Position numbers and translations under genes: made by a program | NCBI GenBank assembly: GCA_026120035.1 | Contig: JALRME010000013.1 | Span: 1-64,000 of the forward strand | Length of the DNA stretch: 64,000 bases | Source of the DNA: Coleophoma eucalyptorum | Lineage: Eukaryota; Ascomycota; Leotiomycetes; Helotiales; Dermateaceae | Direction of reading: 5' to 3' | Shown: positions 1,061 through 17,300 of the stretch, one piece after another | Layout of the letters: each line of letters begins with the position of its first letter | Numbering within the stretch: the first letter of the stretch is position 1 | The notes under the pieces: model-generated | Seen by the model: only the letters and a program-made list of their open reading frames with translations | Told to the model about the DNA's origin: nothing | Database searches by the model: none

Positions 1061-1865
1061 AATGTCTAGTAAAGGTGAGAGGTAAGTTTTTTTATATTTT
1101 AGAGAATTTTTATTGTCCATACTCTTTTTGAATAGGTCTATAGATGTATATATATACATGTTCATACACACACACATTATCTAAGGTGGTTGGGGAATGT
1201 GTTTATCACATGATCAGAGAGCCTTTCCGGAACCAAGCCTGATCTGTCTTTCACTTTCAACATCCCAGTACGCAGCTTACTTTTATTAGATGGTTAGATG
1301 TATACATAGGGTGGTAGTACTGTATGTCGTGGGCTATAGTAGCTATTTAAATACCTTTGAATTAGCTTAATTTAACTATATACGTAGATCAAAGTCGGTT
1401 TAAATTTGACTTAGGTTTAAATTAGATCTTAATTGAACAAATTTAAGGCCAAACCTTAAACTAAGTTTGCTTTAAATATAAATTAAGTCTAAAGCCGTCA
1501 CTAGACTCACCCACTGTCTACTGTTATCAAGTCCGACTTAAGCCTAGATCAAATAGATTGGAATTTTAGCTTAGATCCGCTCCAGATCCAACTTATATCT
1601 TGCTACGGCTAGATTTGAGTTATATGTAGGGTGGCAGCAATGTAACGTTCATTTTCGGGCCTGAAATGTACTACTGTATTATGGATCTATAATATTTCCC
1701 CGGTATAAAGCTTAATAAATAAAAGCCGTGGCCTGATTCGGTTTATTTTACGTGTTAGGCTAGGTTTGGGTTGGCCATATGAAGTATTGAACCATATAAT
1801 TTGGGTTATGTTTTCAACTTTAATTCCAGTCATTCAACTACAACATCGTCACACCCTGTCTCAAC
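1061..1865. other. AT-rich gene-free stretch downstream of the ankyrin gene
   Basis: No supportable gene. The stretch is rich in ttaaattt- and aatttaggtt-like words also seen at 11,870 to 12,330 and 13,000 to 13,340, so it is probably decayed repeat sequence plus the 3' flank of the ankyrin gene. Confidence 0.5.
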
Positions 1866-4800
1866 TTACCCAAAAAGTCTGTTCCACAAGTTTTCTGATC
1901 TACTGTGCCTCAGTACCTGCTCCTTGGATGAGGACTTCCTCCGATGAGTCTTTTTATGCCTGCGCGTCCGAGATGATTGCTTCTCGGGGGTTACTGGCAG
2001 GGCTTCTCCAATTTCTTTTCCTGGTGGCAAGCAAACAACTTGAAGCTCTGTCATGGTTTCTTTGGTAGAGTTTACCAATGGTATAGTGGTCATGGAATTT
2101 CTTGATTGTGCCTCTATAGCACCCAGCAAATTACTGCTCGATTGGTAGTTCTGCTTGCTTTCGCCTATTAGTGCCGGGTGAGGATCAATTTCATCCTCGA
2201 TTCCAGATCCATCAACTACTGCAGGACGGCGGTATGTCATTGGTCCAGGCTCCATTTCATGTTCCAGTGGGTGCTGCCGTGCATTGTCACCATCCTGATA
2301 ATTGCCATGAACACTTAATGGCTTGTCCGCATTCTCGCAAGCAATTGTTGGCAGAGCATCATTCAATGTTTGGCCTTGCCTGGCCTGGGAAGCTACAGGT
2401 TGAGTGCTCGCGTCAACGTCTGTGAGCCCAGTCTGCAGATATCCTAACCTAGTAATACTTTCTCGTGAAGGGGTACCAGTAAGGACAGTAAGACTCGGCT
2501 GACTTTCGTTTGGCAGCCGTGCGATAGCCACTTTAACGTCTGGTGAAAGTGCTGAAACATTTTCAGGTTGTGTGGCTATCGGGTTCTGCTCCTGGAAGCT
2601 ATACTCAGGGTTGGAGGAAACTCGGGTATCGAATGTGCTATATGTACTAGCAGAGTTCGGACGAGGTATTTGCTTCGCGAACTCGATAGGCAATTTAAGA
2701 TCAGGCATCTTCAGGATTAGAGCATTTGCAATTTTGCGCTCAGTTTCAGAAGGATTTCGCAACATTCTTCCTCGGTTCAAGCGGAGTTCATCCTCTATAT
2801 CTTGCAGCTCCCAATCTCTCTCCTGCGTCAGGAGCAACTCTACCAACTCAAGTCTGTCACTATTGATGGCAATAGTCAATGGCGTTGCACCAAGGAGGTC
2901 TTTGGTGTTCAAAGGAATGCCGGTGCTTATTAAGTATCTGGCCACCTCCAACTCGTTCTTTTCAACAGCGGTATGGAGAGCATTACGGCCTCGAATATTC
3001 GTTGCATAGATATCGGCATTGTGCTTGATCAGGAGTTCGGCCATAGGTACGCTGGTGGCGAAATGAAGAGCTGGCGAATCGTGAGAGCCACATCTAGCAT
3101 TGAGATTGTATGTACCGGGTTTCAAAAACTGATTGACATGCGCCAAGGAATCCAGAGCTACTGCTAAACAAAAGGCGTCCATATTGCTGCGTTTCTCCCG
3201 TCTCCCAACAATAGCACCTCTTCCAAGTAGACCCGAGACCACCCCAATATTCCAAGAATCGACGGCGTGCCAAAGTGGAGGGGCACATCGACCATCATCA
3301 AGAATAGCGCCATAATTAAGCAGCTGGATGACGGAGGAATGAGAATGACATCGTATTGCCAAGCCTAGCGCGTTCATGCCTGAAAAAGTAAGAGGCAATG
3401 TCGAGGCACCATTTTCCAGTAAGGTCAGAACGACATCAAAATGTCCTCCTGCAGCAGCCATATGAAGTGGGGTCTCACCTAATACATTGAGGCTCTCAAG
3501 TCCTCCATTGTACCGAAGAAGCAGTTTGACAATAGAATTGAGACCGAGAGACGCACCTAGGTGCAGTGGTGTATGTCTGTAAAATTCGCGAGCATCAGGA
3601 ATTGCGCGTCTACTCAATAGCAGCTTAACAACTTCTTCAGACCCCGATTGCACCGCATGATGCAGGACTGTGGCCTGGCTCCTATCTCGGTGATTTACAT
3701 GTGATCCATGGTCAAGCAAAACCGTGGTAATTGGAATTGACCGGTGGGACACCGCAAGGAATAGAGCTGTGATTCCCTGCCAATCTGTCGCATCGACCTC
3801 TGCACCATGGTCAAGCAAATACTGCACACATGCCGTCTGCTGACCCCAGGCAGCTACTAGAAGTGGTGTGGCAGCATAGTCGTTCTTGGCCTCGATGTCT
3901 GCTCCCTTCACCAGAAGTGCGTCTAGGATCGAAATATGACCCCAGATTGCGGCAACATGTATCGGCTGCCAACCTTGTCCGCCACAATTGTGGACATCAC
4001 CTCCTCGCGCTAAGAGTGACTCTACGATCTCAAAGTGGTCTCTCCCAGCAGCTGCTTGATGTAGGGGAGTGACCCCACAATCGTCAACTACCCCAATAGA
4101 GGCACCATACTCTATGAGCAAGTTGATCATAGAACGAGCTTTTTTTTCCACAGCGATATGAAGTGCACACTTTCCATCGACCATCAATGTGTTGGGGCTT
4201 ATACCTCGAGAAAGTAGGATTCGTACCTCAATCTCGTCATTGTCTCGTACAGCCGTAATTAGGGGTCTTGTCAACCGCGTACATCTGTAGTCAAGCTCTT
4301 CTGCGGTAGACTTCGCAGCTAGACACCAGTCGCGAAATCTTTGCTGTTCACGGCTGGCAAAATTTCGGGGTAGGTTGGACTTACTAGATGTAAGTATTAC
4401 CTCGAACCCAATCCCTTTTAACTCTTTTCGTAGTCCATGCCATTCTTTTTCCTTTGCTTTGTCAAGTGCTGCATAGAGCTCACCTCCGGTAGCTTGCGGA
4501 AGTAGCGTATTAAGACCATGCCCAAAAGTGGACCTTTGGGAACTAGGCTGGCCAATTGACAATGAACTTTCGAGAGTCATGTTAAATGTGCTACCCGGTT
4601 CATATCTTGGTAAGCTTGACAATTCAAAATTGCTTAGGAGAGGCCTCGATGCTCCGGGATAGTGTTGCCGTATGCGATCAAGATAATCCTGCAGTGTCGA
4701 AGCTTGCGCAGCTGTGATGATTCCAGACTTGTGGACTGGTAGACCAAGCTCAGATGAATCATGATGTTCAGGGCCTTTGAGGTGCTCGGAAGGCCCTTTG

Positions 4801-5419
4801 TGGTGGTCAGTAATGTTCGCATAGAGACTTTGCCCCGTGGAAAGTTTTACGATGGGTTCAGGTTTGTCTGGAAAATCAAAGTATTCGGACTCTGACGATG
4901 TGCTAGATGCCAATGATGATCCAATACCGGTGTTGAGTATTTTTAAGTCTCTACCATTAGATGATATTTCAATGTTATCAGGCAAAACAATCTCTGGTTC
5001 TGGTGAGCCTTTCTCATCATTATCCATAGAAGTTTCGGGCGTTTTAGTGATTCGAGCAATTGCTTCCAGTAGCAGAAATACTTGTTGCTCGGTGAGCGCA
5101 ATTGGATTCACCCCTAGGTTCTTCAAGGACCTTTCGAACTCTCGCCATGCCAACCATTCTGATTGCTCCTCCGGTGGCACACGCGTCTTCCTTTTTCTCG
5201 AAAGATTTACACTATCGGCCAGTATATCTGGGTAACGATTAGTGTGATATGTGCACAAACACAATTTAAATTATGCCCACTGATGATTTGTATATCTCTT
5301 CCAGCATTATGTCCGTCTCCAATGTACGAAGCTCCACCTTGTGTGTTGAAATTTCCGGAATAAATGCGATCATAGTGGAAGGGGTGGTCTTCTAATGGTG
5401 ACTGTGGTTGGTATGGCAT
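1866..5419 (-). CDS. ankyrin-repeat protein with N-terminal amyloid-like signalling motif
   Basis: Two exons, 5419-5281 and 5227-1866, predict 1,166 residues. The 53-base intron has donor GTGGGC, a CACTAATC branch region and a CAG acceptor, and keeps phase. The open frame reaching 5,264 starts at TTG, so the ATG at 5,419 is preferred. Residues about 17 to 46 hold YSGNFNT, GG, Y.G and NAGRDI, matching the C-terminus of the divergent hydrolase. Residues about 47 to 365 are low-complexity or unrecognised. Residues about 367 to 846 contain roughly 14 ankyrin repeats (for example TPLHQAAAGRDH and TPLHMAAAGGHF). The tail is Ser-rich and very basic. I see no P-loop or NACHT segment. Inferred role: cytoplasmic receptor or scaffold that nucleates the partner hydrolase. 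The frame is intact although surrounded by decayed repeats. Ankyrin assignment is firm; the signalling role is inference. Confidence 0.85.
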
Positions 5420-5940
5420 CGGTTCCTACTCTTCAGTACAGACGGCGCAAAGGTGAAATCAACAATCCAAGCATCCAGGTGCCAAAAGCCATGGGCGTGT
5501 TGCTTTATTTGACAAAGCTATGATGGATGACCAGTTGCTTAAGAGGCTATACGCATTATTTGGCTGCAGACTTGAGGAAGTCATATGATGGGTACTTCGC
5601 TAGGGATCTCAAAAATATATGAAGGCTCGTACAGATTGTATTCTACATCTTGGGCAGCCATCTATTGATGAAGATGAAGGGAAGAAGGAGCTGAATCAAT
5701 TCAAGCACATCTATTTCCAATGTTGCGAGGCTGTGTAAACGCCGTGGCTTACTCAATTATGCAAGGACGAGGCAAAGCGATGAAAACCAGCTGACACTCC
5801 GCAGATAAGATAACAACTCAGGAGGGACTAGCTCTACTCCCAAGGAGGTTTCCACAAACATACACACCCACACACTCTTTCTCTCTGTTGGCAGCAAAGG
5901 TTGAACGCGCAGCAAAAAGACAAGTTTGATATCCCGAAGT
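5420..5940. promoter_or_regulatory. shared divergent promoter of the ankyrin/hydrolase pair
   Basis: The two start codons are 521 bases apart and face outward, so both genes probably draw on this interval. It is not empty of coding character: plus-strand codons from about 5,513 to 5,736 read as a protein-like stretch with only two internal stops (a TGA and a TAG), which looks like a gene relic. No operator was identified. Confidence 0.5.
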
Positions 5941-7186
5941 ATGCCTGAGCCCTCCAATTTCAAAGAGCAATACGGGTTACTCGTGCTCGCAAGCCCCGCC
6001 AATTCAGCTGTTGAGTAGGTCACCCCCCCTCCCCAATTAAACCTTCTCATCCCTAATAAGCAAGGCTGACATTATGAAGTATAGTCTTTATCCACGGACT
6101 AACAGGAAATCGGGAAGATACATGGACTCACAAAGACTCAAAGAACTTTTGGCCTCAAGCACAATTGCCAATCGATTTACCGAAAGCACGTATCTTAACG
6201 TTTGGCTACGACTCCGACATTGTTCGGGTTGTTAGTACTACATCTTCTAATAATCTGCGAGACCATGGAAACTCTCTTGCCAACCAGCTTGCTATTTTCC
6301 GGAAGAGGTCGAAGGCACAGCACCGCCCTCTCCTTTTCGTTGCTCATAGCCTTGGAGGACTAGTAGTCGAGCAGGTAGTACAGCCCTTAAGAAGCTCGAT
6401 ACCGCACTACTGATATCTGCTTAGGCACTTCTGATATGCCGAGGTGCTGCCGAGGATCATCTAAATTCTGTTCTTGAGAGTACCTACGGCATTGTTTTCA
6501 TGGGCACTCCTCACCTCGGCTCCAACCTGGCGAGATGGGGAAAGATTCTAACTGGGGTAGCTAGTATTGTCAAGAAGAGCAACAGTGAAATTGTTGGTGT
6601 TCTGAAGCCAGGTTCGGAAATGCTTGCAAATCTTCAGCAAGAGTTTCATACCATGATGAACTCGCGCACTAAGCAAAGCAAACCTGTAATTAAGATTTTT
6701 TGCTTCTTCGAGGAGCTTCCTATGATCGGGATTGGTGAGGTAAATTTCTGCTTGACTTCCGAGGAAGGCTAGTACTAACAGACCGGTCTCCAGATCGTAC
6801 CAAAGCACTCTGCTATCCTGCCCGCATATCGCTGCCAAGCTATACATGCTAATCATGTCGATATGGTAAGGTTTTATGGCTCGAATGATGCTGGTTACAT
6901 TTCCGTCTCAAGTGAACTTTGGCTCTGGGTTAACGAACTTGAAGAGGCCAGCGATTTATCACAATTGGCGCAGGCAAGTGAAGAGTCAATTCCAGACACT
7001 GCAGATGTGCGCCGAAGAAGAGCGATAAGGTTTGCAAACATGTCTGATATCATTGGAAGCAAGGCTAGCAACTCGAGTTCAGTCTACTCTGGTAATTTTA
7101 ATACTGGTGGAGGTCCTCTGTATACTGGCACACAGAATGCAGGCCGCGACCTTATCAATGGATCTTTATCCACGGGTTCTCGTTGA
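5941..7186 (+). CDS. SesB-like alpha/beta hydrolase with C-terminal amyloid-like motif
   Basis: Four exons, 5941-6014, 6080-6374, 6425-6739 and 6794-7186, predict 358 residues. All three introns (65, 50 and 54 bases) have GT-AG ends and the phases agree. The second intron removes an apparent frameshift and stop. Residues 25-32 (DIVFIHGL) form the oxyanion-side motif, FVAHSLGG places the nucleophile at Ser115, MGTPHLG follows at about 149-155, and His249 in HANHVDM is the likely catalytic His. This order is that of SesB-type putative lipases found in fungal incompatibility loci. Residues about 325-349 carry YSGNFNTGGG and NAGRDL, shared with the N-terminus of the neighbouring ankyrin protein. 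Expected role: an effector activated by motif templating, acting on lipid or ester substrates; the substrate is unknown. Hydrolase fold is firm; cell-death role is inference. Confidence 0.88.
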
Positions 7187-8032
7187 GAAGAGTAAAGCTA
7201 ACCACCGATTTATTTTTGATATTAGAACAGTTTTACCAGTTAGGCCTTGGTCCGACCGGTTTGATTTCTTACAAATACCCGAGAAATTTCCCGAGCCTCC
7301 ACGGATGTTCAATGAAGAGGAACCGTTGCTGGTTACTATATAATTACGGGATATACTTACCATCACATAGCATATATATTTTAATGTACTAAGGCAGTAA
7401 TTTGCGAAGAAGTTTATACCGAGAAACTTATACATCCGTAGTATACCTATTACTCCTTTATATCATTCAACTTCCCCTCGCCTTCTTGATTTATCGCCTG
7501 GGAGTTATGACTTCCTAGCTCGCTAAAATACAGCCTTTTGCTTTAGACATTAAATATAATAACAACAACAACATATGAATACAAGAGGAAAAGAACAGTA
7601 TCCTGAAGATATCCGCAGCCCACATGCTAGGTACTTCTATATGTACCACTAATACCAAATGCCAGTCCGCCATTGAAAGCTCTCTCATCCGTAGCCTATA
7701 GTAGACACACTTTAGCAGCACTTAAGCGGCGTATTACATATTTTGGGCGCCAACTTTATCTTCACATAGACATTTTCAGCATTAGCCTGTCTGGGGTTGA
7801 GCATGCTAAGAAGGTTACTATAGTATTTATACTGTACCCCTCCTGCCTTTGCGTTCTAGTAGAGCTAGTCCAAAGTGGCAAATTTTCAAAATATAAAGAA
7901 AGACTAGGCGTTCAAAAGCACGCCCCTGCAACGACAAATATATAGTAGCTTATAGGTAAAGATAAGTACTATACGTATCTACTATTATACTTAAGTACTA
8001 CGTTGTTCACTAAGTACCGTAAATGCCCTAAG
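7187..8032. other. gene-free 3' flank of the hydrolase
   Basis: AT-rich sequence with short frames only (for example 7,673-7,945) that have no recognisable domain and no supporting splice context. It runs into the R1 copy at 8,033. I see no gene. Confidence 0.5.
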
Positions 8033-8590
8033 CTGCGCAGGTAGATTTTTTGAAAATCTGAAAAACCGCCCACTGGTTAACCACTGGCTTAACCACAATT
8101 TTTTGGCTTGTTATAGAGGTCTCGTCTAGTATATGGGGATCTCAAGGGGGGGGGGGGGTTATCTCTTAGATTTTGACCATCAATTTCAACTTTAGACTCT
8201 GACTCTTAATTTCGACTTTAAATCTCTTCTCTTAGATTTTGACTCTTAATTAATAAGTACATTGAATTCTAACCCTCGATACTAACCCTCGATACTGATC
8301 CTCGATACTAACTTTCGACTCTAACTTTCGATCTCAGCTCTTGATTTTGAATTTAATTTTAAACGGCCTCTACTAGTTGCTTCCGACTTGTTCAAAGTCG
8401 AAAAATCAAGAGTCAGATTCTAAAGTTGAAATAGAAAGTTGGATTCTACGGTTTAAGGCCAAAACCCACTGGGTTTTCGTCCCAATGGTTAACCAGTGGT
8501 CTGGTTACTAGGTTGAAACCCACCCACTGGTCTGGTCTGGTTTTATGGGTGGTCTGGTTTTTCTGGTTTTGGTAGGCTGCCCTCTCGAAG
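8033..8590 (-). repeat. R1 repeat, inverted partial copy
   Basis: Begins with CTGCGCAG and carries, in mirror order, every block of the copy at 10,566-11,489: the cagattttcaaaaaa block, ccagtgggt blocks, a G13 run at 8,146-8,158, agattttgactctta words, the cttccgacttg block near 8,384 and the ccaaaacc end near 8,570. It is shorter than its partner, so internal deletions are likely. Together with the plus-oriented partial copy at 100-420 it flanks the ankyrin/hydrolase pair in opposite orientation. Confidence 0.7.
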
Positions 8591-9963
8591 TCGGACCATA
8601 TGATACTTGTCTTAAAGGTTTAATAGGTATCTCCACCTTTCCTATGCTTATTCTAGTCACCAAGAGCACGGGCTAATTCAGGTGGTTATGTATATATAGT
8701 TTCGAAGGAATTGCCTACTCGGGAATCTCATTTATTTAGAGGCCCTCTACCAGTACATAGTAGCTTAGTCCTAGCTTAATACGGTATTGACGCCTAAGAG
8801 CCTACTTAAGTCTTAAACTTTAATTTTAGACTCCCTCTAAGTTTTCATATGGCAAAGCTTTAAGAAAACAACTAACTTACTAGACAACCGAAAAAATACA
8901 TAGTAGTATACATATAAGAGGCCGCCAATATATATATATATATATATATATATAGTAAGTTATTAATTTAAGTTCAAATCTAACCTAAGCCTAAAAGTAT
9001 ATCAACTTACTCATAGTGTAGTAGTTAGAATTTCCTATACTGTATAGCACGTACCTAGTTCATAATCTAAGCCTGTTTTAAATACCAGATCGTGTTCAAA
9101 TCCCAAGCCGTAGTAAGGCTCTAAACCCTTTTTCTTCTCAGTATAGATTTTTGTATAGTAAGCAGCATATAAATCGCGGCTTAATCTACCTAGATTAAGC
9201 CGTAGTCTTCACTAGGACTTAAACTAAGCTTATACTAGCTGGAGTGAGTACTGAAACTAGAATAGCTACCGAATAAATCTACCCTATATATTGATAGATA
9301 TAGTACTATAATCTATATATACTATAAGTAGTCTAAATAAACTTAGAATCTCCTTTAAATATAACCTAAGTCTACTGCTGCGCTTTGTTTTATAGTACTT
9401 AAAGTAGTACCAAACTTATAGGTACTTACATGTAGAAGAAATACCTTGCTGTCTTCTTATTTTTCTTGTATTACTGATTAGGTCCTCCTTATTTACCTAC
9501 GATACAGGCAATACTGCTGTTCCTTCGAATACATATAAGATAATGTACTTTCAAGTGGCTCACTCACCTCTGTAAGGGATGGAGCTCACACCTACCTACT
9601 TTCATAACTACCTAATATAGGTATATGCTGCAATGTCTTTGCCGTTTTAAGCCCCTGGTGAAATAGTATTTACCAAGAGGGCCGCATACTAGGTACATAG
9701 GTAGTTGCTAAAATATGAGGTCATCTACGGTGGGCTAGATGCTTCTCTTATCAATATAGCGCAAAAGTCGCATCGGAACAGCCTACAGACCATGCAACTA
9801 TGCGTAAAGGCTGCGAAATAAGGGACTGGTACTATGTCTTCCCCTACAGCTCCCGCTATTACTACCATAGCAACATCGGCACATGTGGCTACCAGAGTAT
9901 TTCGGTTACCACCAATACCGTCGATTATATCGAATCTCCTCTCACATTGTGTTAGACCCCTCG
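8591..9963. other. decayed repeat DNA between inverted R1 copies
   Basis: No gene seen. Contains a TA dinucleotide run at about 8,930-8,954 and words such as ctaaacttagac... and taagcttaga... shared with 13,680-13,760 and 16,270-16,350, pointing to another unclassified old repeat. A gttcaaatccc word near 9,090 resembles a tRNA B box but lacks a matching A box. Confidence 0.4.
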
Positions 9964-10283
9964 TGTAAGAACCTGATCTACCCAGATGTCATAATTGGAT
10001 TATCCAGTATATATGACACGTGATCTTTTGTGTCCTTCATACGAGACCTATAAAATTCGGGTCAATATAAGGTTATTGTGCTCCCAAACACATGTATCCT
10101 GCCTTTGATCAAACCTGTGTCTTTACACCTCCATCGTTTTACCAATCTTTTGAAGGAAAATGCAAATATACATTAGCATATCAACTTCCACCGTTAAATC
10201 ATCCTGAAATTGAATTTCTTAAAATAAATGGTGATAACGAACCCAACAAGCTTTACATTCACTATCTAACATATCGAATCTGA
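9964..10283 (+). mobile_element. LTR (shortened) plus start of internal region, family L1
   Basis: The LTR runs from TGTAAGAACCTGATC to GCTCCCAAACA at 10,090, about 127 bases, versus 260 in the copy at 15,442-15,701. It is followed by the same internal sequence (atcctgcctttgatcaaacc) as that copy. From 10,092 a 63-codon open stretch starting MYPAFDQTCVFTP is probably the beginning of a gag-like region, because the opposite-strand copy near 15,400 can be read into related residues (PAFDQTCV). No integrase or reverse transcriptase follows, so the element is truncated. Confidence 0.5.
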
Positions 10284-10551
10284 ATCAGCTTATGCTGTTT
10301 TTAGGGCAGTGCCTAGTATAGCCATTAGAGGGGTCCTACATCAAAATAATGAAAGTGAGAGGAGTATAAGCTCTTAATTAATTTTCTAACTTTAGAGGAG
10401 GATTGCAAGTGTATATATACATGTGTGTATGTGTCAGTCTATAGGCGGTTGGAATGAGTCGATCACCTGATCAGGAAGCTTATCAAGAGTCAAGCCTGAT
10501 TTCATCATCTCTGATCTTAACAGCCTAGTAATGACGATGGAGTTTTTTCTT
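10284..10551. other. short gene-free AT-rich stretch
   Basis: No gene seen. A tgtatatatacatgtgtgtatgtgt segment near 10,410 resembles one near 1,148-1,175, each followed by a similar ggttgg...gatcac-ctgatcag block, so this is a further dispersed repeat. Confidence 0.4.
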
Positions 10552-11501
10552 TATCTACCCCTACGCTGCGCACCAAAACCAGAAAAACCAGACCACCCAT
10601 AAAACCAGACCAGACCCGTGGGTGATTTTTCAAAATTTCCAACCCAGAAACCAGACCACTGGTTAACCATTGGGACGAAAAACCAGTGGGTTTTGGCCTT
10701 AAACCAGTGGTTCAGGTAGAACCCACTGGTTTCTTAACCAGCCTATATAACCATTACGTAACTTTATACTATAGAGGGGGAGAGGTCCCTAAAAAGAGAA
10801 AGTGGTTTGGTTTCTTTGCTTGCTTTTAACTCTAGGATCTAACTTTCTATTTCGACTTTAGAATCTAACTCTTGATTTTTCGACTTTGGATATTAATTTT
10901 GGATTTCGACTTTGGATTTCGACTTTGGATTTCGACTTTAGATTTCGACTTTGGATTTCGACTTTAGATTCTATATTTAGATTTTTAATTTACTTAGTTT
11001 ATCTTTTTAGGCTTAGTATAATAATCTTAAAACATACTAAATAAGCGAATCCATAGATACTAGTGACTAAGGAACCTTATATAAGCGAGCAAGTCGGAAG
11101 CAACTAAGAGGGGCTGTTTAAAATTAAAGTCAAAATCAAGAGCTAAGATCGAAAGTTAGAATCGAGAGTTAGAATTAAGAGTCAAAATCCAAGAGAAGAA
11201 ATCTAAAGTTAAAATCAAGAGTTAAAATCTAAGAGAAGAAATCTAAAGTCAAAATTAAGAGTTAGAGTCTAAAGTTGAAATTAATACTCAAAATCTAAGA
11301 GATACCTCCCCCCCTTTTGATACTCCTATATAATAGGCAAAACCCCTATATTAAGCGAAAACCCAGTGGTTAAACCAGTGGTTAACCAGTGGGTGGTTTT
11401 TCAGATTTTCAAAAAACCAGCCCATATGGGTAGAAACCAGTGGGTTGTTTACAAATTGAAAAACCAGCCCATGGGTACCCAGTGCGCAGCCTATCTACCC
11501 C
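10552..11501 (+). mobile_element. R1 element, fullest copy, with 10-base flanking direct repeats
   Basis: The body runs about 10,566-11,489 with ends CTGCGCAC and GTGCGCAG as short inverted termini. The 10-mer tatctacccc flanks it at 10,552-10,561 and 11,492-11,501, as a target-site duplication would. Internal layout: ccagaccacc/ccagtgggt blocks, tandem gactttggattt words at 10,890-10,975, a caagtcggaagcaac block, agagtcaaaatc words, a C run, then more ccagtgg blocks. No transposase frame is present. A 9 to 11 base duplication and sub-terminal repeats fit a non-autonomous Mutator-like element, but this is inference. Confidence 0.55.
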
Positions 11502-11576
11502 GGTGTCCGCTGCAAGAGACTGTTTATTAACGAGAAAATGTGTTGGCTTCCATCAAGGCAATGCTTGTTCATGGAT

Positions 11577-11775
11577 CTAACTGCCGCCGTGAAAGGTCAG
11601 AAACAAGGGCGTGGTTCGTAGCAAAGTTAGGGAGGCCGATTTGAACATCGCGGTCTCGAGCATGGACAGGTCCATGTAGCCACTAGATCTAGAGGTATAT
11701 GTTAGCGTCTTTACATAAACCTCGCCATGGACCAAAAAAGCCGCACCCAGAAAATTGTCATGCGCCAAACTATCA
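11577..11775 (-). pseudogene. unidentified coding-like relic in a less AT-rich island
   Basis: Between R1 and the next AT-rich block the sequence from about 11,500 to 11,780 is visibly richer in G and C. The minus strand is open for over 60 codons (segments such as DNFLGAAFLVHGEVYVK) but the frame begins with TTG and no flanking exon is evident. I do not recognise the family. It could be a captured or relic gene fragment, or chance. Confidence 0.2.
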
Positions 11776-13759
11776 AAGATTTACTACTTTACCTATTGAA
11801 GGATAGGGTAAAGTCCAATAAGAAACAATAGGACAACAATGGAGTACTTACGTGCTTTATTATAATGGCATAAATCGAGTTTAATTTGAATTAGATTTCG
11901 AGTTCTAAATTTAATAATACTGTTTTAAATTTGATTGCAAAATACCTAATAGGTTTAAACTAGTTTAGTCTAACATTGAATTTCAGCTTAGATATTAAAA
12001 CCTAATTTAGAAACCTATATATCATTATATATATCAATCATATTAAAAAGGAACTTGATTTCTAGACGATTTAAGAAAAACAATATACAGAAAGGTGTCT
12101 ACTAGTAGTTAGTTATATGGTATACCAAGCAAATAACTAATATTATAATACTTAATCTATAATATTTGAAAGCTATAATCTAAGCTACCTTTTAGTCGAA
12201 TTTAAATCTAGCCTAAGCCTGAAACTAGATCAACGCAGTAGCTAGGGTTTCCCACACTATATAGTATCTAGTTAGGGTTCAGTTAGGCTTCATCTACGCT
12301 TTAGTTAGCTTAGAGTAGACATTGACTTAGACTTTAAGTTTATTGGCTAAAACATAATTATAGAGCGTAGCCTATGTTGAAATGAAAGTCAGAGGATAAG
12401 AGCAGGCTTAACTCTGGATAAGCTTCCGGACCATGTGACTTATAAATCCTGGCTTTTTTGGTCTTCTACGTATTCAAGAAAGGCCTAGATGTACTCTAAG
12501 CTAACTCAAACCTAGATCAGGCCTACATAAAGAGATACTATACAGGGTAGGAAACTCTACCTTAAGTACTATGTTGATATATGTAGTCTTTGGCTTACGT
12601 TATATTTGAAGTCACTTAAAGCTAGCTTAGATTATAGTTTTGAAAATACTACAGGTTTAGAATTACTATAATTTTGGATATATAATACGCTATATAGGTA
12701 GTAACCATTTTAGATTATATACAGTAACCATTAGTATTGCGTAACCGTATAGTATTGCTAAAACAGGTCCAAATGGGGGCGGGGGGGGGGGGGGGAAAGA
12801 GGTCATAAAGGGGGTGGGGGGTTCCAAAAGAGGTATCTTCAAAATACAGAGTCAAAATCCAAAGTTGAAGTCAAGACTCAGAATCTAAGAGACTCTTCTC
12901 CCTCTGAAACCCCGGATCCCCGGAACTCCAGTGGTTGAACTAGTGGTTACTTAAATTCCGTCCTATAATAGCTTAAATCGAATTCAATTCTGGTTTAAAT
13001 TTGATTACAGTCAGAGTGTAGATTTCAATTTAAACCCAATTTGAACTAGGCTTGAGGTAACTTAAACCCAAGGAAAAATAAACCAAAACCTTGATACAAC
13101 TGAACAGTAGGTGAATTTAATGCCGGCTTTAGACTTGAGCTGGATTTAAAGCCGACGTAGATCCGATTAAATCGTATTCAAATTGAATAAAGCAAGTTAA
13201 GTAAATTAACCTAAGTCTGATTTGGGAAGTCTTCATTTAGTCTGCACTTAATGGTAGATAAATCGATTCGAATTTTCGCTTCCATCTGTTTTAAATCCGA
13301 CTAAGTCTGGCTGGAGCTAGATTTGAGTTGTGTATAGGACGGCAGTAATGTAACTAGTAGGCGGTTTTTCAGATTTTCAAAAATCCAGCCCATATTGATA
13401 AAAACCAGTCTATGGGTTGGTACTATGTATGTAGTACCCAATGCGCAGTCTAACCAATGTATACCATACCTTTTATTGAATAAGCCCTGTAGTTAGTGGT
13501 CGTTGAAACTATGGCGAAGTATATTATAAGTCGAGCTTCTAGTTCTTCTAAATTTGCCTGGTAGCTGCTAGGCATAGTACTATATAGTAATTTATAGTAC
13601 TTGCTAGATATAGTATAGTACTATAATATATGTATTTTATATAGGTAAAATAGGCTTAGCCTCCTTTAAAGGTAACCTAAGTCAACTTTTACGCTTTGTT
13701 TTATAGTACGTTTTACGTAAACATAAGCTTAGACTACAATTATGTTTTAGCTAGTAAAC
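11776..13759. repeat. AT-rich decayed repeats with two further R1 fragments
   Basis: No gene seen. R1 words recur at about 12,781-12,960 (a G15 run, agagtcaaaatccaaag, ccagtggttgaac) and at 13,350-13,450 (cagattttcaaaaatccagccc, ending cccaatgcgcag), both plus oriented. The rest is made of ttaaattcaa-type words and has stops in all frames. Confidence 0.5.
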
Positions 13760-14213
13760 TGTTGGTTCACCCTACGGTGAACGCTGTCTAATCTCTGTCG
13801 AGTACTCGGATCAGAGTCCGGTTCACCAGGAGTTCGAGCTCGACTCCGTAGGGTATTAGGTTCACGCTGGACCTATATAATCGGTGAGACGATAGACGTG
13901 CTACACGCTCAGGTCACCCTTTCTTCTGAAGGTAATCCAAGTGTATTGTGGCTGTTGTCTATTATGTCTGCCCTTCTAAGAGTGGGCATCTCTACTACTT
14001 AAATACAACTAGGTTACCCCTTTTTCTCCCTACTTAAGACTGACCCCTTATGTTCGTACGGACTTCCCTTTACCTTGCTTTTGTCTAGGCCGAGCCGTAT
14101 CAAGTTCTGCAAAGTAATTGCTTTTTCCTTTCGGGAGCTTCGTACGGATCGGGAAGCATCCCGGTAGATATATCGGTAAACATATCAGGCCTAATTCTCG
14201 GGATGTCCCGACA
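13760..14213 (-). mobile_element. solo LTR, 454 bases, with 5-base target duplication
   Basis: On the minus strand the unit starts TGTCGGGACATCCCGAG and ends GGTGAACCAACA, the TG...CA ends of an LTR. It is bounded on both sides by the identical pentamer taaac (13,755-13,759 and 14,214-14,218). Base composition is visibly less AT-rich than the surrounding repeats, so the insertion is probably younger than the local decay. No internal retroelement sequence is attached, which fits LTR-LTR recombination. The Gypsy or Copia class cannot be told from the LTR alone. Confidence 0.7.
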
Positions 14214-14566
14214 TAAACTTAAGCTTAGACTTACGCTATAAAATTATGTTTGAACGAATAAACCTAAACTTGGACTATGCTATAGCGTTTGTAAAGTTAT
14301 AATAAGTGTTGCGAGCAACGATGCAAGGGATCAATGGAGAGGGTGAGAATTGACATTGACATTGTAGCATGACGGTAAAAGACTGCCTGGAGGTCTATTT
14401 ACATGTAGGTGCCTGTAACGTGATCACATGACCCCCTTTTTTTTTCAACAATACTTAGTATAAGCACCTACTTAGTTCTTACCACCCCCTAGTTGTTACC
14501 ACATCACGAATTTCGCCACTACCGACCTACATCTCTAATTACTCCATAACTAGGTATACTATCAAA

Positions 14567-15980
14567 ATGAATCAATGCGAAAAATCTATTCAAAAAGCAA
14601 TACAAGATTATGAATCGAACACACAATTATCGGTATCTACTATTGCGAAGGCCTACGGTGTCAATCGATCGAGTCTCTCCCAAAGAAACAAGGGCCGAAT
14701 AAACGCGCGATTAGGTCACGAATCACAGCAGCAATTAGCTCGATCGTAAAAGGAGTACCTTTACGAATGGATATGTACTATTACAGTCTACGAGAGGATA
14801 TTCACCTTCGTATACTCGTGTACGAGAAATAGCTACTACTCAAATACTAGTAGCTGGAAACAATAATATCGCACTAGGGAAGAGGTGGATCTCCAAGTTC
14901 CTGTAACGTAGTAGAAATATTGCCTCTATAGTTGGAAAGAAGACAGAGAACATTCGAATCGAAGGAGCTACAACAAATAATCTAAACGTATTTTTTATAT
15001 AATATAAGGTTATTCAAAGTTGATACAATATATAGCCAGAGGTCACCTATAATATGGACGAACAAGGAACTGCTCTAGGAGTATGTACAAAGTCAAAAGT
15101 ACTTGCCACTTCAAGTAAGGTATATACTTATATAGAATCACCAGAAGATAAAGAATAAGTCTCTATAATAGACACGATTCCGGCCACCGGACGAAAATTA
15201 CCTTATGTTATTACCTATATTCAAAGGATTTTTACATCAAACAACCCTTCTATAACTCTATTTAGCTCTCTTTCTGCTTTTATTATACCTATAGGGCCAT
15301 GATAGCTGTACAAGGCGGCTAATAAATTATATAGTAATACGCCAGTATCACGAGAATACAAAGGCTTTAGTACAAAAAGCAAGGAAAGGGTTTGCAAAGT
15401 TAAATGTAAGGACACAGGTTTGATCAAAGGCAGGATAGAGGTGTTTGGGAGCACAATAACCTTATATGACTGAATCCTATAGGTCTCGTACGAAGGACAC
15501 AAAAAAGAGAAGAAGAGAAGAAGAGAAAGAAATCAATTTCCATGACATGTCCCTCTTATATGCTTCCTGGGTCCGAAACCCCATCCGACTCTGCTCATAC
15601 TCGCTTATCATACTTTTCTTGTATCATGTGACATTTATCTGGTCACATGACATGTATCTGGATTATCCAATTGTCGATTCTGAGTAGGTCAAGTTCTTAC
15701 ATTAAATAATAGTACAGTAGCAAAGCAAGCTACTACTATAAAACAACTACAAGCTAAACTTGATGCCTTTAAGAATAACCGTATACCAAAGAAAGTCAAA
15801 CCGGATCCAAATAGCCGCTTTATTAACTTAGAAAAGATCAAGGAAGCAATTGCGCAGGCGGCGGAAGAAGAGGCAAAAAGAACAGCGAATACTTTACGGT
15901 TAAGGCTAAAAGAGGCCTCAGAAGAAGCCTATAATAGAGGCTTTCAATGTTTGTTATCTGAGTTTGAATCTAACAGGTAG
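14567..15980 (+). pseudogene. pogo-family transposase, broken
   Basis: The N-terminus (14,567-14,749) encodes a psq-type helix-turn-helix with SVSTIAKAYGVNRSSLSQR, typical of fungal pogo/Fot1 transposases. Beyond a stop at 14,749 conserved pieces follow in changing frames: GKRWISKFL near 14,880, NMDEQGTALGV near 15,055 (the first catalytic Asp region) and IDTIPATGRKLPYV near 15,175. The central DDE block is missing where the LTR element lies. The C-terminal part resumes near 15,750 (NRIPKKVKPDPNSRFINLEK) and ends at a TAG at 15,978. Frameshifts, stops and the insertion make it nonfunctional. Confidence 0.65.
15225..15701 (-). mobile_element. LTR plus internal fragment of family L1, nested in the pogo transposase
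   Basis: The LTR on the minus strand spans 15,701-15,442 (260 bases), from TGTAAGAACTTGACC to GCTCCCAAACA. Internal sequence matching that after the LTR at 9,964 follows down to about 15,225, where pogo-like reading stops. The 93-codon minus-strand frame at 15,221-15,502 overlaps the LTR boundary and is not a gene by itself. The inner end of the insertion is uncertain. Confidence 0.5.
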
Positions 15981-16058
15981 TTGTAGAGTAATTAAAATCA
16001 TAAGTTGGTGGTGGTGAAATTTGTGATATGGTAACAACTAGGAGTGGTAAGAACCAAG

Positions 16059-17300
16059 TTGCTTGGACTTAATATAGTAGTTATTAAGTCTACCTTATTA
16101 TTCGAAGGATGGGGTATTGCCTAGTATCGTAGGTAAGCATAACTTAATCAATAAGGCAAGAAAATAAGTACGAATATTTCTTTTATACCTATAAGGATGG
16201 TACGTAATAGTAATATAAAAAATCTAAGTAAGAAACAATAGGATACCAATAATCAGCATTGTTTAGAACGCAGTCTAAGCTTAGATTTACATAAAATGTA
16301 CTATAAAACAAACCCTAAAAGTTGACTTAGGTTACCTTTAAAGGAGATTCTAGATCTATTTTCACTATATGAGAATTATAAAGATTATACTACTATGCCA
16401 TATCTAACAGTATTGAGCCTATTCTAAACCTATGTCAAAATCAGATAGAAATATATGTAAGGTAACATTAGATCTACGTTAGATCTAGCCTGTATCTAGC
16501 TAGAGCTATATTTCAAATATATCTAGGTGTAATAGATACAATGGTATCCGAGGCATCAGTCTAGGTTTGAGTTTAATAACTAAAATATGATTGTAGAGCG
16601 TAGTCTACCTAAGATACTAGTTTTGCTAGTAAGACATACTATGATAAAAAAACGTAAAAGTGGACTTACATTTTCTTGTGGGAAATTTTAAACCCATTTG
16701 GACTATATGATATGTTTAGATTACTACAGATATTATTCTATGTAAAGTTATTTTGTACTTTGGCTTATATTTATATAATGATACCTCGTAACTAGATCGG
16801 GGTATTTATCATGCTCTTGATACCAACTCTAGCTAGGCTTAAGCCTTGAAAAAAAACGAATTAGGCTTCGGCCTTTTCAAGGCTTGATACCGAAAAATGG
16901 TGTAGATCCCTACCTACCTTATTATGGACTTCTATATTGCCCTTAAAGATATACTTGCTTTATATAAGTTAGGGACAAAATAACACCCCGCCCAAGTCCT
17001 GGATTGCGAGAAAGGTGGCACCGGTTCTACAAGATTGTTTCTGTATCGCAGTCCACTCTCATTGAAGATAATCACTTGAGTCCAAAGTAACCGACAAAAT
17101 ACAGTTGAGCGAAAATATTACCATTAACTTCCCTCCCCCCTCCCGTCGGAGTTGAAGGTTGCTGAGTGGCTGCATGGATAAAGAAAAAGCAACGGCCGGA
17201 ACCATTCGATGAGCAAAGGGGGCAATAGGAGTCATGAACGTTTGATTGTTGGCGTGCAGAAGTGATCGCTAGGTAGTTGTGATCCAAATGTTGGTCTTTG
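16059..17300. other. AT-rich gene-free stretch at the repeat/euchromatin border
   Basis: No gene seen. Words such as agattctagatc and gtagtctaccta... are shared with 9,300-9,370 and 13,640-13,760, indicating old dispersed repeats. A ttaggcttcggccttttcaag palindrome-like segment sits near 16,860. Composition becomes less AT-rich from about 17,000. Confidence 0.4.

Follow-up and report, generated by a model that had tools for sequence, protein, structure and literature searches.

Organization of the divergent gene pair

The window analyzed here covers the first 64,000 nucleotides of contig C6 (JALRME010000013.1) of Coleophoma eucalyptorum; the genome searched comprises 45.26 Mb in 101 contigs. 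The window contains two head-to-head genes, one for an ankyrin repeat protein on the minus strand and the other for a SesB-like hydrolase on the plus strand, which share a short motif located at the N terminus of the former and near the C terminus of the latter. An intergenic region of 521 bp (5420..5940, by direct reading) separates the two start codons. An earlier note, made from the sequence alone, had described this arrangement and proposed that the genes form a receptor/effector pair signaling through an amyloid fold. The head-to-head orientation and spacing that it gave, as well as the residue positions, reading frames, and coordinates of the two motifs, were reproduced by translation and by the spliced gene models.

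The hydrolase gene consists of four exons on the plus strand (5941..6014, 6080..6374, 6425..6739, and 6794..7186), and the joins 6014/6080, 6374/6425, and 6739/6794 yield a protein of 358 amino acids that ends in SSSVYSGNFNTGGGPLYTGTQNAGRDLINGSLSTGSR. All four introns proposed for the pair are of the GT..AG form, with lengths of 65, 50, and 54 nt in the hydrolase gene and 53 nt in the ankyrin gene. The spliced hydrolase aligns with its homolog P0003 across every join, and the three predicted hydrolase joins are well supported. The protein was assigned to the SesB-like hydrolases, as the earlier note had it, by a match to DUF676 (PF05057; E 6.3e-11; bit score, 42.6; cut-off, 20.3). Exon 2 encodes the AHSLGG nucleophile elbow with Ser115, and exon 4 encodes the conserved His249 and the C-terminal tail, in which the motif YSGNFNTGGGPLYTGTQNAGRDL occupies residues 326 to 348 (7085..7153, plus strand).

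A search of 5.8 billion proteins with the hydrolase gave 1,088 matches, 120 of which are listed (P0001 to P0120) and were used in the analyses below; the source names given among the matches listed are those of fungi. In an alignment of 45 of the 120 listed homologs, Ser115 and His249 fall in nearly invariant columns (the numbering of P0003 is also that of the window protein). The AlphaFold model of P0003 averages at least 83 in 21 of the 27 ten-residue blocks between residues 11 and 280, and at most 65 per block in the tail from residue 281 onward, motif included. Foldseek matches of this model are mainly alpha/beta-hydrolase chains, the best of them thioesterases and other enzymes of this fold, with E values down to 4.1e-9 and TM-scores of only ∼0.35 to 0.58. 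BlEst2 is the sole PDB sequence matched by the hydrolase profile at an E value of ≤0.01 (E 8.3e-6).

The ankyrin gene is predicted to comprise two exons on the minus strand. Exon 1 (5281..5419, with the start codon at 5419; translation MPYQPQSPLEDHPFHYDRIYSGNFNTQGGASYIGDGHNAGRDIQII) carries the N-terminal motif IYSGNFNTQGGASYIGDGHNAGRDI at residues 19 to 43 (5291..5365), as read from the translation, the spliced model, and the enumeration of splice sites. Exon 2 (1866..5227) ends in a TAA stop codon at 1866 to 1868 and contributes an open frame of 1,134 amino acids, so that the protein has 1,166 amino acids once 5281 is joined to 5227. The predicted 53-nt intron (5228..5280) has the donor GTGGGC, a good CTAAT branch site 11 nt upstream of the acceptor, and a CAG acceptor. 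Enumeration of the GT donors that leave an open frame with introns of 38 to 200 nt gave only two that use the acceptor at 5228. The join 5280/5228 is plausible, not certain. The other compatible donor, at 5337 on the minus strand, would give a 110-nt intron and an ankyrin isoform that loses half of the motif. The terminal TAA sits within a donor-like GGGTAAGT (1863 to 1870, minus strand), and a further exon is possible there, which would leave the motif unaffected.

Exon 2 encodes about 340 amino acids with no recognizable domain, followed by the ankyrin repeats and a C-terminal region without a Pfam match. A Pfam scan of the whole protein to an E value of 1 returned seven families, every one an ankyrin model (Ank_2, E 4.3e-87). 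The repeats match many loci of the genome at ∼25 to 43% identity, none of them closely. Structure prediction for the 400 amino acids that follow the motif gave a mean predicted local distance difference test score of 35 and no confident fold.

The motif shared by the two proteins

The motif near the C terminus of the hydrolase (VYSGNFNTGGGPLYTGTQNAGRDL) and its ankyrin counterpart are short and rich in glycine, asparagine, and aromatic residues, and they are identical at 16 of 24 gap-free positions by manual count. The first 60 amino acids of the ankyrin protein and the last 45 of the hydrolase align locally with a BLOSUM62 score of 79, which none of 20,000 shuffles of the hydrolase tail reached (mean, 25.4; standard deviation, 4.8; maximum, 57). 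Among the 1,590 six-frame open reading frames (ORFs) of at least 25 amino acids in the window, the hydrolase frame ranked first and the ankyrin exon second, at 79, with the third at 40. A whole-genome search with the hydrolase tail, which scores the best candidates only, gave two matches at an E value of ≤10, both in the pair, and detected no third copy of the motif. The similarity of the two motifs is far beyond chance, and the motif is more than low-complexity sequence, a possibility that the earlier note had raised. No Pfam model, NACHT_sigma and Ses_B included, matched the motif at an E value of ≤10 within the limited sensitivity that the hmmscan filters allow, and the search of PDB sequences returned only an unrelated immunoglobulin (E 2).

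Related tails in foreign hydrolases

By eye, short glycine-rich tails end many of the 120 listed homologs and are missing from many others. A tail profile, SGGGxxFxGxxxAGRD[FIL], was built from 19 foreign tails, among which the P0001 row is shifted by one residue. Tails of this GGGxxFxGxxxAGRD type were matched above the HMMER inclusion threshold in 23/120 listed homologs, of which 19 are the builders and four are additions that come, by their source names, from Cadophora, Halenospora, Penicillium lividum, and Colletotrichum camelliae. The profile also finds the tail of the window hydrolase (E 0.00057 among 1,990 ORFs). A typical foreign tail, searched against the genome, gave no match at an E value of ≤10.

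Compared directly with the 120 listed tails, the ankyrin N terminus scored best against P0076 from Cadophora (67), followed by 62, 59, and 55. The best score over the 120 tails averaged 37.5 in 2,000 shuffles of the ankyrin N terminus, with a maximum of 62, and 67 was never reached; the remaining 18 ankyrin pieces of 60 amino acids scored at most 41. The ankyrin motif therefore resembles foreign hydrolase tails beyond chance. Other classes of G/N-rich tail were found with simple patterns among the 120 listed homologs, namely ISGxQVTGGTxNF (5/120), GNVxxSxV...GxLxF (6/120), and NxGKxxxGxxFxG (6/120), and these may perhaps be further undescribed signaling motifs.

A second pair, other SesB-like loci, and the genomic setting

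Searched against the genome, the hydrolase matched 42 times, which amounts to about 32 places outside the window; 18 of these places were looked at. One of the 18 (L036; contig C46, 83500 to 92500), referred to here as pair 2, is likewise a divergent head-to-head pair, formed by a STAND-ankyrin NOD-like receptor (NLR) and a standalone DUF676 SesB-like hydrolase. The hydrolase tail reads FYNYNNTGKMVNGSVFNGNVTF, and the first exon of the partner gene ends in YHNNNSGNMANGAFYGGVYF. A 49-nt GTAAGT...AG intron joins this motif exon to the receptor frame, which is open over 849 amino acids in all and encodes a STAND P-loop NTPase domain (NPHP3_N; E 4.1e-30), a NACHT match below the cut-off (0.0016), and ankyrin repeats. 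The two motifs of pair 2 align with a score of 51, reached by 4 of 20,000 shuffles. Across the pairs the motifs score only 20 and 31 and are therefore pair specific. Thus, within this set, both standalone SesB-like genes in which a glycine-rich tail was recognized, in the window and at L036, have a divergent ankyrin repeat partner with a matching N-terminal motif.

A P-loop frame lies downstream on the same strand, according to a pattern search, in 13/18 of the SesB-like loci. L041 and L052 show a P-loop-like stretch by eye, L039 has an NB-ARC-like stretch that the pattern does not match, and L051 has none. In most of the loci looked at, the SesB domains look like in-cis fusions to NLRs, and fused and separate SesB architectures appear to coexist in this genome (the L037 to L053 set).

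The pair occupies a GC-richer island close to the start of the contig: the GC content is 46 to 49% across the pair (2-kb steps, 2001 to 7000) and 34 to 39% in flanking AT-rich blocks. These blocks, at 1 to 1865 and 7900 to 17000 on either side of the pair, bear direct and inverted repeats: a 154-nt direct repeat links 247 to 400 with 11303 to 11456 (92%), and inverted arms lie at 250 to 360 and 8046 to 8156 (88%). Past 18 kb, 8 of the 10 ORFs scanned belong to ordinary Pfam families.

A candidate two-component module and its alternatives

On the sequence evidence, we lean toward the view that the two genes constitute a two-component module in which a signal would pass from receptor to effector by amyloid templating. 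A ligand bound to the ankyrin repeats, or some other clustering of the ankyrin protein, would gather copies of its N-terminal motif. The gathered motifs would adopt an amyloid fold and impose it on the tail of the hydrolase; the hydrolase, thereby clustered and switched on, would damage membranes or lipids. The sharing of the motif, its placement (given the predicted splice), the gene pairing, and the effector family are observed; that amyloid is templated, that the ankyrin repeats sense a ligand, that the hydrolase becomes active, and that the cell dies are steps that we infer. The weakest link in this mechanism is what clusters a receptor that has no nucleotide-binding domain (NBD). With no recognizable nucleotide-binding oligomerization domain in the ankyrin protein, clustering must be triggered in another way than in an NLR.

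In favor of the module are the strength of the motif match and its restriction to this locus within the genome, the likeness of the ankyrin motif to foreign hydrolase tails, the DUF676 assignment with conserved Ser115 and His249, the hydrolase fold of P0003, and the same anatomy in pair 2 with pair-specific motifs. Several observations weigh against such a module. No NACHT or NB-ARC domain was found in the ankyrin protein by the Pfam scan, and the GK[ST] P-loop pattern occurs nowhere along its length. A NACHT search of the genome (51 matches at an E value of ≤1e-3) also gave none within the window, a result that weighs little because the same search missed the receptor of pair 2; a better control is the Pfam scan itself, which detects NPHP3_N in the pair 2 receptor at an E value of 4.1e-30 and not in the window protein. 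The donor of the ankyrin intron (TCA/GTGGGC) is weak. Ankyrin residues 1 to 390 have no homolog at an E value of ≤1e-3 in the protein collection. The foreign-tail profile is not significant on the ankyrin motif (E 3.1 among 1,990 ORFs, with two unrelated ORFs higher), and the hydrolase tail scores 82 against the Cadophora tail of P0076 and 79 against its ankyrin partner, which ranks second among 121. Motif-bearing receptors outside the locus were sought with four motif variants in the 5.8 billion proteins, and none of the 539 candidates reached an E value of ≤10; the search is insensitive, since by our estimate a motif of 25 amino acids must be about 75% identical to attain that value there, and it is therefore weak evidence of absence. 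The placement of the genes among the receptor/effector amyloid pairs by the earlier note holds in part, and the role in allorecognition or programmed cell death that it proposed is putative: the shared motif, the SesB-like effector, the divergent arrangement, and the same anatomy in pair 2 agree with it, whereas the receptor lacks the NBD of the NWD2 and PNT1 types and the motif has no Pfam match.

Ankyrin proteins are commonly scaffolds or inhibitors. The motif may instead serve for homotypic docking, whether through amyloid or otherwise, and keep the hydrolase permanently complexed with an ankyrin protein that acts as scaffold or inhibitor and not as an inducible receptor. That common role, the absence of a recognizable switch domain from the ankyrin protein, and the inability of motif pairing by itself to separate activation from sequestration all speak for this account, which we nevertheless consider improbable, as the gene order and motif placement mirror those of pair 2, a STAND NTPase receptor and its effector in the same genome.

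Less probable still is that the ankyrin gene derives from an NLR whose NBD was lost near a repeat-rich contig end, leaving a module that is decaying or inactive. The position of the pair between AT-rich, repeat-rich blocks would suit such a loss, as would the 51 NACHT matches in the genome and the NTPase domain of the pair 2 receptor. Against it, the frame of 1,134 amino acids is open, the motifs are identical at 16/24 gap-free positions, and the 317 amino acids searched from the linker between motif and repeats have no second match in the genome at an E value of ≤1; therefore, no NBD remnant is recognizable.

We give little credence to the idea that the motif exon stays unspliced, is read through to a stop near 5209, and encodes a motif-only peptide of about 70 amino acids that would serve the hydrolase as decoy or seed, with the ankyrin gene starting elsewhere. 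The weak donor and the unspliced frame, open past the motif until that stop, would permit it. Against it, the 53-nt intron has an ordinary branch site and acceptor and preserves the frame, the exons of pair 2 are arranged alike and have a strong donor there, and in the spliced protein no methionine follows the motif until deep within exon 2. Chance likeness of low-complexity sequence, to which the G/N richness of the motif might point, was rejected as next to impossible on the composition-preserving shuffles (0/20,000), the genome search with its two copies only, and the foreign tail family.

A receptor composed only of motif, linker, and ankyrin repeats would raise the question of what triggers nucleation without the NBD engine, and NLR-anchored searches would undercount such systems. 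It is conceivable, though we hold it to be doubtful, that the YSGxxNxGGGxxxxGxxxAGRD tail represents an undescribed family of fungal amyloid signaling motifs on SesB-like effectors, missed by NLR-based surveys because its receptors, like the one in the window, would be ankyrin proteins without an NBD. In that case, an NLR would be dispensable for amyloid signaling, and the effector could be seeded by a simple repeat protein.

Comparison with known systems

NWD2/HET-S and PNT1-HELLP-SBP are held to act by amyloid templating from receptor to effector. The window pair resembles NWD2/HET-S in its adjacent genes and in the location of the motif at the receptor N terminus and the effector C terminus. 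It differs in that its effector, an enzyme, is no HeLo pore former and carries one motif copy instead of two, the motif itself is different, and the receptor lacks an NBD. With respect to the 21-amino-acid HET-s/HRAM repeat, the Pfam HET-s models gave no match, within their limited sensitivity for short motifs. With PNT1-HELLP-SBP the pair shares a lipase-like effector that has its motif in common with the receptor; unlike that system, it has one motif-bearing effector and not two, and again no NBD in the receptor.

The literature used for comparison, available in part, comprised PMC3321046, PMC5485727, PMC9815663, PMC8086366, PMC12261475, PMC12258605, PMC12881547, and PMC7889193. The fungal amyloid signalosomes described in these portions start from a NACHT or NB-ARC receptor whose oligomerization is thought to nucleate the amyloid. 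The window pair has adjacent genes, a shared N- and C-terminal motif (the receptor copy given the predicted splice), and superstructure-forming ankyrin repeats, but no NACHT or NB-ARC domain.

According to the sections of PMC3321046 available, SesB proteins with prion-like tails adjoin STAND receptors, one of which (het-eN) is of an ankyrin type; an intron in the 5′ region had caused its motif to be missed. This sesA/sesB/het-eN locus of Nectria haematococca (the sigma system) and other sesB/STAND pairs resemble the window pair in that a SesB-type hydrolase with a C-terminal tail resembling a prion-forming domain lies beside a repeat protein, of the ankyrin type in het-eN, with the same tail at its N terminus. 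Unlike het-eN, a NACHT protein, the window ankyrin protein has no recognizable NBD. No motif-bearing sesA-like partner of the window pair was found. The sigma consensus printed there (A, GxGxQFNxx; B, GGTQNINT; three repeats) was not recovered beyond a TGTQN fragment seen by eye, and a genome search with PF17106 gave no match over the cut-off and none in the window. By inspection, the PP consensus given in the same source, FxGx(x)NxGLQLxGxNxGxL, is absent, and PF17046 has no match. The same source describes tails as more alike inside a cluster than among orthologs, a rule from which the window pair departs slightly, as one foreign tail scores above the partner. The pair fits the picture in the available text of PMC3321046, except for the lack of an NBD and a motif that falls outside the printed consensus of PP, sigma, and PUASM and has no Pfam match.

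The PUASM consensus FxGxGxQxxGxGxF (PMC9815663) is also absent by inspection, and the PUASM effector is PNP_UDP. In the portions of PMC9815663 consulted, the nonsingular C-terminal motifs of effectors are only PP, HRAM, sigma, PUASM, and a rare PNP_UDP-linked one (four pairs). The portions of the literature searched were found to describe neither an AGRD-type motif nor an ankyrin receptor that lacks an NBD, although a logo in PMC9815663 could still show the motif. The procedures of that survey, as far as its text was available, took NLRs, or effectors located near them, as starting points, and a system whose receptor lacks an NBD was therefore probably not counted.

Pair 2 resembles the window pair in its divergent genes, its motif exon followed by a short intron, and its standalone SesB-like effector with a matching tail; it differs in that its receptor has a P-loop NTPase (NPHP3_N) and its motif is of the NNxGxMxNG type. 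The window pair is compact and directly testable beside this NBD-bearing pair from the same genome.

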